Positions 13,011 to 17,167 of a stretch of 64,000 bases of DNA are shown here, one piece after another. Positions within the stretch are counted from its first letter, which is position 1, and every line of letters begins with the position of its first letter. A model generated the notes under the pieces. That model was not told where the DNA came from, ran no database searches, and saw only the letters and a list, made by a program, of their open reading frames with translations. Both the position numbers and the translations under genes were made by a program. The stretch lies in assembly GCF_005893125.1 (NCBI RefSeq), contig NZ_VCJS01000031.1, positions 1-64,000 on the forward strand. The letters are read 5' to 3'. This DNA is from Nonomuraea basaltis. Lineage in GTDB: Bacteria > Actinomycetota > Actinomycetes > Streptosporangiales > Streptosporangiaceae.

Positions 13011-13571
13011 TCACCGCGTTTCGCCCGTGCCTGCTCCCTCTATCGGATTCCTTACCAGATCTCTTCCTCCCAGACACCACTCGGCCTCCTCGACGAGGCC
13101 GCGTACGAACGCCGCCAGCTCGGCCGACGTCAGCACCGCCCGCATGCCCACGCCCGTCGTCCCCCACGCCTCCACGTAGGCCCGCCTGGTCAGCCGCCAC
13201 TCGCCGCGCCGGCCCCGCCGCCCGGGCACCCAGAGCGGGATCGTCCTGAGCTGGCAGCGCAGCTCCCCGCCGCCCACCAGGCCGGACCTGCTGCGATAGC
13301 GGAAGGAGAACAGCTCACCGTCCGGCTCGTCGCCGGGGAACCTGTCGTCGGGATCTTTCCACCGCCGGGCCTCTCCCCGGCCCTGGCGGGCCTCGTCGAC
13401 GCCGCGCGCCAGGCGTGCGAGCAGCCAGCCGCATCGCTCGCCCACGCTGCCGTACGGGGTGCCGTCGCGATACAGCTCCAGGGTGACCTCGTACGGCGTG
13501 CCCAGGCTGTCCCGGCACGCGACGGGCGTGACGGTCAGATAAGATCCGTCGACGCAGCGTAGTCCCCCCAT
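13011..13571 (-). CDS. Hypothetical protein, 186 aa
   Basis: I do not recognise the family. It is soluble, mixed alpha/beta, with Arg- and Gly-rich stretches and three to four Cys (LRCVDGSYL, VACRDSLG, GERCGWLL, LRCQLRT). No signal peptide or membrane segment is seen. Codon use is that of a real gene (G/C at third positions). It lies 55 bases upstream of the uppS start in the same direction and could be its leader gene. In related genomes a hemolysin-III or recO gene often sits near uppS; neither is here. Confidence 0.55.
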   Translation of the reverse strand: MGGLRCVDGSYLTVTPVACRDSLGTPYEVTLELYRDGTPYGSVGERCGWLLARLARGVDEARQGRGEARRWKDPDDRFPGDEPDGELFSFRYRSRSGLVGGGELRCQLRTIPLWVPGRRGRRGEWRLTRRAYVEAWGTTGVGMRAVLTSAELAAFVRGLVEEAEWCLGGRDLVRNPIEGAGTGETR

Positions 13572-13691: not shown

Positions 13692-14165
13692 TCACCGCCG
13701 GACGGCTCGCGACGGCAGCAGGCGGGACCACCAGGGGGACTTGGCGGCGGGCCGGTCCGGCATGCGGCCGCGCTCGCGCAGCCAGGCGGCGAAGTCGTCG
13801 GCGTCGGTGCGGTAGCTGGGCGGCGGCGCGCCGCGAGACCGTGCGTAGGCGGCGAACTCGGAGGCCAGGCGGGATCCTGCGGCGATGGCCGTGTCGGGGC
13901 GGATCCTGGCCACGATGCTGCGCCGCTTGGCGACCAGGCTCGCGGCCTGCGCCCGCACCCGCTCCTGATCGAAGCCCTCAGGAACGTCACCCCCGGCCAC
14001 CAAGGCCTCGACCAGCCGCGCCTGCGCCTCGGCCAGCCTCGCCTGCGCCGCCACCATGTCCGCCGGCACCTCCCGCCGCTCCTGCGTCTCAGCCGGCCCC
14101 TGCTCGCCCGCCGCCGAGCCCGCGCCGGTCACTTCCACCCCACCCCCGAACGGGCCGGGCGTCAC
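13692..14165 (-). CDS. Small partner protein of the DUF692 enzyme (SCO6045-like C-terminal domain)
   Basis: About 157 residues if started at the GTG (14165) that overlaps the DUF692 stop (GTGA). A flexible Gly/Glu-rich N-terminus leads to a helical domain ([20 protein letters not shown], then [19 protein letters not shown]) and an aromatic-containing end ([12 protein letters not shown]). The helical part resembles the small conserved domain encoded after DUF692 genes in streptomycetes (SCO6045 type). In characterised DUF692 systems a small partner recruits the precursor peptide; by position this protein is the candidate for that job. It has no cysteines and no membrane segment. Confidence 0.6.
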
Positions 14166-14977
14166 CGGGGCTCCCCTGCCAGGGACATCGCGGTCCTGAT
14201 CTTGGACAGCTCGTCCGCCAGGGCCGCGTCGCTCGGGAAGTCGTCGTCCCATTCCAGCAGCACTCCGGGCGGGGTGGCGCGGGCGCACAGCTCGGTGAGA
14301 AGGTCCAGCACCGGCTGGGGCGCGGCGGTGGTGTGCGTGTCGTGCCAGATGCCGTGGTGCTCGTACCCGCCGGCCACATGGACGTAGGCGAGGTGCTCCA
14401 GCGGGAGCGCGTCCAGCGCGGCCACCGCCGACAGGCCCAGGTTGAACTGGTTGGTGTACAGGTTGGCCACGTCGATCAGCAGCTTGACCCCGGTCTGCTC
14501 CACCAGCTCGGCGAGGAACTGGCCCTCGGTCAGCTCGTCGTCGGGCCAGCCGAAGATGGCCGCGACGTTCTCCAGGGCCAGCGGAACGGGCAGCGCGTCC
14601 TGCGCCCTGCGCACGTTCTCCGTGATGACCCGCAGGGACTCACGCGTACGCGGGACGGGCAGCAGGTGGCCCGCCTCCAGGCCGCCGCCGCGTACGAAGG
14701 CCAGGTGCTCGCTGACCAGCGGCGCGTCCAGCGCCCCGGCGCAGGCGGCCAGGTGGGCGAGCCGGGCCGGCGAAGGAGGCTCGGCCCCGCCGACGCCGAG
14801 CGACACCCCGTGCGGGATCACCGGCACGCCCTTGGCCCGCAGCACGCGTAGCGACTCGGGCAGGTGGGCGGGCTTGAGGTTCTCGGCGATCACCTCGACG
14901 AAGTCGACGTCCGCCATGCGCTCGATCGTCAGGTCCAGCTCCGCCCGCCAGCCGATCCCTACACCCAGTTCCGCCAT
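14162..14977 (-). CDS. DUF692 multinuclear non-heme iron oxidase (MbnB/TglH superfamily)
   Basis: About 271 residues with a TIM-barrel and the family's motifs in order: [75 protein letters not shown] and LLEWDDDFP. These supply the His/Asp/Glu/Asn ligands of the iron cluster. Characterised members modify cysteines of ribosomal peptides. ATG 14977 follows GGAGGGGG. An earlier ATG at 15091 overlaps the stop of the upstream gene, but the 38 extra codons have many A/T third positions and are probably not translated. The upstream neighbours encode Cys/Gly tails, which makes them candidate substrates. Confidence 0.85.
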
Positions 14978-15090
14978 ATCAGCCCCCTCCGCCATAAAGG
15001 CCCCGTTCCCTTCAGCTTGGCTCTCGCCCCCGCTATATCGGCCCTCTGGACCACCAGCACTTCCGGGCCGTTCGGCTTCCGGCCGTGCCA

Positions 15091-16017
15091 TCAGCCCCCT
15101 CCTCCACCGCAGCCACCGCCGCCGCAGCTCGGCCCGCTGGATGACGAGCTGTCGCCGCTCGGCCCGTCCGGTGACGAGCCGCCCCCGCCGCAGCCGCCCG
15201 CGCCTACCACGTAGACGCCATCGCTCCCGGCGCGCCTCCGGCTCCCGCGGCGGCCCCGGCTTTCGCTCCCGGTGAGCTCGACTTGGAGGTCGTGGTTGCG
15301 CAGCTCGCCGAGACCGTACAGCGCGATGGCGACGGGCGCCTCGGCGGTGCCTTGGGCGTTGTCCCGCCGGGCCGCGTCGAGCGTCTCCTTGCCCGACGGC
15401 GTCAGCGTGACCCGCGTGGCCCGCTTGTGGCCGGCGATGACGATCGCCGCGGCCACCCCCGTGGCCGCCAGGACGAGCATCGCGAGCAGGGGCAGCAGGA
15501 TCATCAGAACCACGGCCGACACCACCGCGACCACGACACCCGCGTACGCCGCCACTGCCAGCGCCCGCAACCGGGCGCTGAGCCTGCCGGCCTGGGCGAA
15601 GGCGTCGTCGGGATGGAGCAGCCCCAGCCCCGTGAGCCGGCGCTTGAGCGCGGCCATGGCCAGGGTCCGCGTGGTCTCGATCCTGAGCGCGACCACGGGC
15701 AGCCCCGAGCGAGAGGCGACGATGCCCAGCACCGCCTCCTCGATGGGCTCGCGCGAGACGACGCCGGAGTGGACCTGGTGGACACGACCCCCGCGGGACA
15801 CGCGCAGGTCGCCCGAGTCGGCCAGCAGTGCGATGGCGGTGTCCGCCACCCGGCCGGGGCCTGCCGCCAGGTAGGCGAGCTCGTAGTGGCCGAGGTCACG
15901 GCGGCGGGAGCCCGTGGCGGCCGCCCGGATGGCGGCGTGCTCTCGTTTGATCGCAGAGGCGGTGGTGAAGGTGAGCGCCGCCAGCGCCACCGAGACGATC
16001 AGCAGGATCAGATCCAT
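15091..16017 (-). CDS. TIGR04222-like membrane protein with Gly/Ser/Cys tail (copy A)
   Basis: 308 residues. An N-terminal helix ([19 protein letters not shown]), a cytoplasmic winged-helix-like region with the family signature [20 protein letters not shown], two central helices ([20 protein letters not shown] and following) and a last ~35 residues almost only Gly/Ser/Pro/Cys, ending in [12 protein letters not shown]. Three tail Cys lie in Gly runs. ATG 16017 is preceded by GGAGGGGAGG. The stop touches the ATG of the long form of the DUF692 gene. The tail is a plausible modification target of that enzyme; this is inference from proximity and composition. Confidence 0.72.
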
Positions 16018-16174
16018 GCAGGCCTCCCCTCCGTGCAGCCCGACAGGCTGGGTAACCGGGAAGACGCGTAAAGCGGGGGTAAAGGTTCCGGCCGCTGGGA
16101 TACAGTTTCGCGCCGCCGGCCGCCGGCCGCCAGTCGCAGGCCGCCACAGGCCATAGACCGGCCCCCGCAGGCCT

Positions 16175-16294
16175 TCAGCTGCTGCCGCAGCTTGAGCCGC
16201 CACCGCCACAGCTGGACGAGCCCCCACCACAGCTGGACGAGCTCCCACCGCAGCTCGACGAGCTCCCGCCGCAGCTTGACGAGCCGCCGCCGAA
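16175..16294 (-). repeat. 21-bp coding repeat giving a seven-residue Cys period
   Basis: The last ~39 codons of copy B are degenerate copies of a 21-bp unit coding (G/S)(G/S)(G/S)SSSC-like heptads. Cys recurs at exactly seven-residue intervals five times before the terminal GSS. Confidence 0.75.
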
Positions 16295-17167
16295 GTCCAG
16301 ACCGCCGTAGGAGTCGCTGCCGAACGTCGTGCCGTCGCCGCCGCTGTAGGTCCCGCAGGATCCGGCGCAGTCGTTCGGGTCGCCGGCCGACAGCTCGGCG
16401 CAGAGCGTCTGGTCGCCGGCGTCCGCCAGGCCGTACAGGGCTACGGGCAGCCCCACCGCCATGGCCAGCGAGCTCTGGTCCCGCACGCCCCTCGGGTGAT
16501 GCTGATGCGCCGACAAGAGGACCTCGCGTCCCTCGCGCGTGATGATGTTCCGCAGCCTCCGCCCCTTCCTGTAGGACGCCACGAGACCGTTGAGCACGGC
16601 GATCCCACCGAAGAACAGCGCTCCGAGGAACACCGGCTCATTCGCCGCCAGCCCGACGACGGCCAGCACGAACAGCAGCACCATGAACCCCACGGCCACG
16701 CCTGCGGCGATCTGCAGGTGCTGCCTGCGCCGCCACGCCGGGCCGAACGCGTGCTCCCGCACGATCAGGCCGCGGCCTTCGAGCCCGCTGACGAGATCGG
16801 TCAGCGCGGGATGCGTCTGCAGCGCCCGCCGCAGCTCGCCGGCCCGGTAGCCGCCCGGCCTGACCGCCAGCGCATGGAGCACGGCCTGCTCGATCGGCAC
16901 CGGCGAGGGCCGCGCCCCGCGTACCGGGGTGACGTGGGACCCCCTCGACACGCGGATGGCGCCGGCCGTCGCGAGGACGGCCAGCGCCGTGTTGATGGCC
17001 CGCCGCGGGCCGCCGGACAGATAGGCCAGCTCGTACGGGGACAGGTCATGCCCCCTGCCAGTCGGCTTCGCCTCGCTGACGCGCCTGCGCTCGCGTTCGA
17101 CGCGCTGGTTGGCCGCGCTGACCAGGAGCACCATGCCAAGCGCGGCAACGAGCAGGACGTAGTCCAC
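16175..17167 (-). CDS. TIGR04222-like membrane protein with heptad-Cys tail (copy B)
   Basis: 330 residues, same plan as copy A: N-terminal helix, signature LSPYELAYLSGGPRRAINTA, two central helices (AAGVAVGFMVLLFVLAVVGL and LGALFFGGIAVLNGLVA), and a low-complexity tail. The tail contains five Cys spaced exactly seven residues apart in GGSSSSC-type units, preceded by DCAGSCGTYSGG. Start is a GTG (17167) whose ribosome site lies inside a long hairpin. Copy A and copy B differ strongly in sequence outside the signature, so they are old paralogues. The tail should be exposed on one membrane face and is the best precursor candidate of the locus. Confidence 0.72.
   Translation of the reverse strand: MDYVLLVAALGMVLLVSAANQRVERERRRVSEAKPTGRGHDLSPYELAYLSGGPRRAINTALAVLATAGAIRVSRGSHVTPVRGARPSPVPIEQAVLHALAVRPGGYRAGELRRALQTHPALTDLVSGLEGRGLIVREHAFGPAWRRRQHLQIAAGVAVGFMVLLFVLAVVGLAANEPVFLGALFFGGIAVLNGLVASYRKGRRLRNIITREGREVLLSAHQHHPRGVRDQSSLAMAVGLPVALYGLADAGDQTLCAELSAGDPNDCAGSCGTYSGGDGTTFGSDSYGGLDFGGGSSSCGGSSSSCGGSSSSCGGGSSSCGGGGSSCGSS

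Follow-up and report, generated by a model that had tools for sequence, protein, structure and literature searches.

Cys-Gly-tailed TIGR04222 membrane proteins beside an iron enzyme and its helical partner in Nonomuraea basaltis: a candidate tail-modification system at the cytosolic membrane face

Described MNIO systems and the Nonomuraea cassette

Multinuclear non-heme iron-dependent oxidative enzymes (MNIOs; DUF692) are known mainly for their action on small peptides that are exported or released. The MNIO gene addressed here belongs to a four-gene cassette of the soil bacterium Nonomuraea basaltis, found in a 64,000-nucleotide stretch of DNA (NCBI RefSeq assembly GCF_005893125.1, contig NZ_VCJS01000031.1, positions 1 to 64,000), hereafter the window. 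The four genes occupy 13692-17167 on the minus strand and encode, in order of transcription: (i) A and (ii) B, two paralogous TIGR04222 membrane proteins with Cys-containing C-terminal tails; (iii) the MNIO; and (iv) a small helical partner. The explanation that we prefer, and that we regard as reasonably probable, is that the MNIO and its partner oxidise the tail Cys while the substrate is anchored at the cytosolic face of the membrane, with thiooxazole as the likeliest product and metal binding as the likeliest role.

The closest described loci are the TIGR04222-MNIO-PME-type 2 loci, which have the same protein families, the same gene set and the same C-terminal Cys/Ser/Gly tails, subsets of which have been proposed as MNIO substrates with PME-type 2 proteins as partners (Antoine et al., 2025; PMC12452194). 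In the portion of that paper drawn on here, the tails are placed in the periplasm, a third of the genomes with TIGR04222 are without MNIO (490/1,372), the partner gene is reported for 10% or more of the TIGR04222 clusters, and it is apparently absent from many TIGR04222-MNIO clusters. The core idea is thus already published as a prediction; in the portions of the literature on this pairing that were available, neither a product nor a test of it was found. The loci compared below differ from the published ones in that the partner is present at 69/70 loci with both MNIO and TIGR04222 (the exception, L136, runs into a contig end) and often fused to the MNIO, and in that the tail is predicted to be cytosolic. 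As far as those portions of the literature go, the apparently new elements are: (i) the tight link between Cys tail and MNIO; (ii) the near-universal, often fused partner; (iii) the cytosolic placement; and (iv) the portability of the tail.

The bufferin and oxazolin systems (BufB, HvfB-HvfC) also combine an MNIO with a DUF2063-type partner (PMC13419390). In the part of that source used here, the modified Cys of oxazolin lie in EGKCG repeats, a Cys-then-Gly order that matches the CG bias of the present tails. But the bufferin and oxazolin precursors carry Sec signal peptides, whereas here the putative substrate, a membrane protein of several helices, begins with one that resembles an anchor; besides, the window MNIO scores below the BufB and HvfB cut-offs. 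In the TglHI system, as described in the portion available, TglA is a peptide scaffold and TglI has a C-terminal RRE domain, that is, a recognition element for ribosomally synthesised and post-translationally modified peptides (RiPPs) (PMC10880893; 8hi7). The model of the window partner, which covers its last 126 residues, contains no beta strand and thus lacks a full RRE domain, which sets it apart from both TglI and the bufferin/oxazolin partners. Finally, methanobactin MbnBC shares the superfamily and the oxidation of Cys for copper binding; however, its similarity is far weaker (NCBIfam MbnB, 35.4 bits) and its product is a released peptide.

Cys-Gly tails, MNIO and partner across genomes

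Searches covered 394 genomes of the same class, with TIGR04222 over the cut-off in 106 and MNIO in 94. The 140 regions fetched represent 102/106 of the TIGR04222 genomes, one genome below the cut-off (G291) and most MNIO places; left out were the TIGR04222 genomes G102, G121, G200 and G391, all over the cut-off, and, among the MNIO matches, the top three (G232, G252, G291; 366-370 bits) as well as second copies and weak or partial ones. With models rebuilt on the window proteins, 135 TIGR04222 open reading frames (ORFs) in 103 genomes and 90 MNIO ORFs were found. Family f18 was taken as Streptomyces and genus g1 as Nonomuraea on the basis of DNA identical to that of named records (a Streptomyces sp. 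for L089, N. deserti for L103). A protein was counted as Cys-tailed when its last 40 residues held at least two CG or CS pairs and were at least half Gly plus Ser, and "near MNIO" means within 2.5 kb on the same strand.

According to this test, 67 TIGR04222 proteins are Cys-tailed and 60 of them are encoded near an MNIO. This was the case for none of 14 matched controls, namely Gly/Ser-rich TIGR04222 ends that fail the Cys test (10 without Cys and 4 with one or two stray Cys), some of whose genomes have an MNIO elsewhere. By genome, MNIO is present in 61/61 with a Cys-Gly-tailed TIGR04222 protein versus 19/42 without (one of the 61, G079, counts via the MNIO cut by a contig end at L136, missed in the class search, in which the other 60 were found); by genus, the figures are 23/23 versus 2/12 (Fisher p 4e-7). 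Among 11,695 stop-to-stop ORFs of at least 60 aa from 141 loci (the window and the 140 fetched), a Cys-Gly/Ser tail was found in 81, of which 72 end near an MNIO, i.e., 72/2,425 near ORFs versus 9/9,270 others (Fisher p 1e-39, a value that describes this locus set only, its loci having been picked for TIGR04222 or MNIO). The looser published association between TIGR04222 and MNIO therefore becomes tight once only Cys-Gly tails are counted. The sequence-only reading of the window had proposed the tail Cys as substrates, an idea, already predicted in print, that comparative genomics supports well (61/61 genomes, 0/14 control tails); it was not refuted, since no genome with a Cys-tailed TIGR04222 protein and no DUF692 gene was found (0/61).

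The tails themselves have a recognisable composition. Gly follows 83% of 337 tail Cys (68 tails, by a looser test) versus 46% Gly in the background, the spacing between Cys is typically 4-8 and the last Cys usually lies 2-5 residues from the end. Tail lengths vary widely.

The tail is not confined to TIGR04222. At 10 MNIO loci, the sole Cys-Gly tail is on another protein: (i) at 8 loci, single-helix proteins (nine ORFs of 60-119 residues, with starts chosen by us), in 9/9 cases with no more than one positive residue ahead of the hydrophobic stretch and four to seven behind it; and (ii) at 2 loci, a soluble protein without a hydrophobic segment. The soluble scaffold, encoded at L166:3016-4446 (+) and L167:5348-6706 (-) by ORFs of 476 and 452 residues beside an MNIO-partner fusion, had no Pfam match; the loci of three of the nine small single-helix ORFs were scanned against Pfam, also with no match. 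At L084:4533-5162 (+), two single-helix Cys-Gly-tailed proteins with tails of different length stand in tandem between MNIO and partner. The same tail thus occurs beside the enzyme pair on three scaffolds (three-helix TIGR04222 proteins, single-helix anchors and a soluble protein), which makes it a shared element. Neighbouring gene clusters vary by family and the cassette stays together.

The partner family was found at 88/90 MNIO loci (the exceptions are L165 and the truncated L136) and at none of the fetched loci without MNIO. At 44 loci (30 of f18 and 14 of f17) it shares its stop-to-stop frame with the MNIO and at another 44 it is separate; in two of the fused cases the best-scoring stretch is oddly placed. 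These natural fusions suggest why partner genes had looked missing. They mirror a laboratory fusion of HvfB and HvfC, described in the available portion of its source as built because the two proteins bind weakly and as highly active (PMC13419390). In a genome scan seeded with the partner, from which the best 80 of 94 loci were kept, with named genomes, an MNIO is present at 78/80 loci, and a contig end marks the start of the remaining 2; since 17/80 match the first set over 200 identical bases, this is no independent sample.

The nearest relatives of the window partner among the matches listed come from Nonomuraea, with N. turkmeniaca at 83% identity over the best segment. It has no Pfam or NCBIfam match of its own and is, hence, under the DUF2063 Pfam cut-off, which, together with its gene position after the MNIO, agrees with a PME-type 2 partner; PF09836 (DUF2063) is matched weakly by 9/82 members of the partner family. 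The AlphaFold2 model of its last 126 residues (predicted local distance difference test, pLDDT, 90) has four main helices, and its top structural match is the N-terminal domain of TglI, a weak match that is level with an unrelated chain.

Regarding the enzyme, the iron site is intact. The ligands of the window MNIO, in 309-aa numbering and by alignment with TglH, are H94, H129, E174, D207, N210, H238, D251, H253 and E280; in the available portion of the TglH source, their counterparts are His71, His107, Glu151, Asp184, Asn187, His216, Asp229, His231 and Glu258 (PMC10880893). All nine are also kept in 89/90 aligned MNIOs, the ninetieth (L136) being truncated. Iron binding and peptide oxidation by the window MNIO are predicted. 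Its further NCBIfam scores are 189.9 bits for BufB (equivalog cut-off 310), 152.5 for the HvfB family (360), 129 for ApyH and 65 for ChrH. By analogy with the nearest characterised relatives, HvfB and BufB, the product is probably 5-thiooxazole (-4 Da each).

Placement of the tail and rival explanations

In the AlphaFold2 model of A (mean pLDDT 81.7), membrane-length helices span residues 2-31 (transmembrane helix TM1), 138-170 and 178-206 (the hairpin of TM2 and TM3), with a winged-helix-like region (44-131) between TM1 and TM2; short helices follow and then a disordered tail, with pLDDT below 50 nearly throughout residues 271-330. The N-terminal helix, of 30 residues, lacks positive residues ahead of its hydrophobic part, and the 15 residues after it include six Lys or Arg, which is the pattern of an anchor. 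Three spans could be assigned in 52/67 Cys-tailed proteins, A included. Each flank holds on average 3.28 Lys plus Arg on the tail side versus 0.34 on the other side, and charge favours a cytosolic tail in 51/52 of them (again including A) and in 51/51 Cys-less proteins. A fourth hydrophobic stretch has a poor insertion score on an approximate scale (median 7.4, versus -1.1 in TM1 and, in the hairpin helices, -0.6 and 2.0; 4/64 below 2) and is charged in 35/64; in the model of A, this region forms a 12-residue helix and then short ones. The tail is, on charge and model, probably cytosolic, where a soluble iron enzyme could reach it. For the metal-binding or redox surface of the sequence-only reading, charge makes the cytosolic side more likely than an outer one, and the proposal of a membrane-tethered rather than released substrate fits.

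The mechanism that we prefer would run as follows. The MNIO and its DUF2063-like partner would form a cytosolic complex that binds the membrane-held A and B and oxidises Cys preceding Gly in their disordered tails. The transmembrane helices would hold the substrate at the inner face, so that the enzyme would encounter the tail in the cytosol and its product, most likely 5-thiooxazole, would remain anchored. There, on the inner side of the membrane, it would most likely serve to bind a soft metal such as copper. To a broader version we give an even chance: a general system in which a cytosolic MNIO-partner pair, in many cases a single polypeptide, oxidises portable Cys-Gly C-terminal tails of intact proteins on at least three scaffolds, making fixed metal patches at the inner membrane face instead of a peptide for secretion.

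Several observations weigh against the preferred mechanism. The main one, which opposes a simple one-substrate story, is that the enzyme pair persists where the supposed substrate is absent: 25/90 MNIO loci (20/35 of f18 and 5 others) are without a Cys-Gly-tailed ORF nearby. All 35 aligned MNIOs whose loci have no Cys-tailed TIGR04222 protein (a number that includes loci whose tail is on another scaffold) retain the nine ligands; the enzymes of tail-less loci need another or an unlinked substrate. In the partner-seeded set (best 80 of 94), the tail is missing at 10/78 MNIO loci, L243 and L247 having less than 1 kb of contig upstream. Conversely, 7/67 Cys-tailed TIGR04222 genes lie away from MNIO, each in a genome with an MNIO elsewhere. 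Inspection by eye of example sequences from the 25 listed neighbour clusters, with no domain search, revealed no metal gene. The window MNIO is under every NCBIfam equivalog cut-off that it touches, so its product cannot be read off. As to topology, which rests on the charge rule and hydropathy, 15/67 Cys-tailed proteins could not be scored, including B, whose hairpin helices merge in the count; L128 is the sole scorable Cys-tailed protein with the opposite charge balance; and in 11/52 the fourth hydrophobic stretch is over the hydropathy threshold and, if spanning, would flip the tail.

The loci without a tail speak for an explanation that we consider unlikely, namely that the tails are unmodified (plain thiol ligands for metal or redox, or linkers) and the MNIO acts on something else, near or far. 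At L047, L057, L059, L062, L063, L071, L075, L077 and other f18 loci (20/35), the MNIO stands beside a Cys-less TIGR04222 gene or none and has no Cys tail in reach, and many of these MNIO genes are in one frame with the partner; at L077, a DUF4142 protein lies between MNIO and TIGR04222. In total, 22 Cys-less TIGR04222 genes are near an MNIO, 8 of them sharing the locus with a Cys-tailed one, and comparable Gly-rich tails that lack Cys repeats are found at a distance from MNIO. Such an explanation has, however, to face the absence of Cys-tailed genomes without MNIO (0/61) and of Gly/Ser tails lacking Cys-Gly beside MNIO (0/14), as well as the fact that the tail is the only visible part common to the three scaffolds next to the enzyme pair.

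An ordinary RiPP, in which the tail is modified, cleaved and set free as a small peptide for metal binding, with no other part for the membrane domain than that of a leader, is in our opinion quite improbable. Methanobactin and other characterised MNIO products are released peptides and RiPP cores are usually C-terminal, as the tail is. But TIGR04222 proteins are far larger than a usual leader, the tails differ widely in length, and in the same 25 listed neighbour clusters neither a protease nor an exporter could be made out by eye. Lastly, tails that are MNIO substrates but exposed outside the membrane like bufferins, modified before or during membrane insertion, agree with the placement from predicted topology in the portion of PMC12452194 available, with the fourth stretch in 11/52 proteins and with L128, but are very unlikely in view of the charge balance in 51/52 Cys-tailed and 51/51 Cys-less proteins, the poor insertion of that stretch and its short helices in the model of A, the positive residues after the helix in 9/9 single-helix ORFs and a soluble scaffold that has no hydrophobic segment.

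Features of the cassette and meaning

The locus described in the sequence-only reading (two Cys-tailed TIGR04222 genes, an MNIO and a helical partner on one strand, the last two overlapping by 4 bases) is confirmed by coordinates and family scores.

Features of the cassette in the window, with positions in window coordinates
Feature	Position	Strand	Length and start	Support
TIGR04222 protein A	16175..17167	-	330 aa, GTG start	NCBIfam TIGR04222 (near_uncomplex) 122.9 bits (cut-off 43)
Cys/Gly/Ser tail of A, residues 271-330, proposed substrate segment	16178..16357	-		pLDDT and Cys positions
TIGR04222 protein B, paralogue of A	15091..16017	-	308 aa	NCBIfam TIGR04222 87.8 bits (cut-off 43)
Cys/Gly tail of B, last 40 residues, three Cys	15094..15213	-		
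MNIO (DUF692/PF05114) enzyme	14162..15091	-	longest ORF 309 aa	PF05114 (MbnB_TglH_ChrH) 265.9 bits (cut-off 25)
Partner, DUF2063/TglI-N-domain-like helical protein	13692..14165	-	157 aa, GTG start	

The last 75 residues of A hold 8 Cys and the last 33 of B hold 3. The MNIO has a later ATG at 14977, just ahead of the family domain, and the bases shared by its stop and the partner start are GTGA. The window genome encodes a single MNIO and three TIGR04222 proteins; the gene of the third (L174) is unlinked and its product has a Gly/Tyr-rich end without the Cys-Gly tail, a natural within-genome control. Directly downstream of the cassette, at 13011-13571 of the window (-), there is a 186-aa ORF without a Pfam match. 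The assembly G000 totals 14.3 Mb over 670 contigs and its contamination is estimated at 8%, so that its gene counts are approximate.

If the preferred mechanism is true, MNIO chemistry would decorate full-size proteins that stay in the cell, with the tail as a portable tag. Part of the large TIGR04222 family would then gain a testable function and its published orientation would be corrected; likewise, natural single-chain fusions of enzyme and partner would become available.

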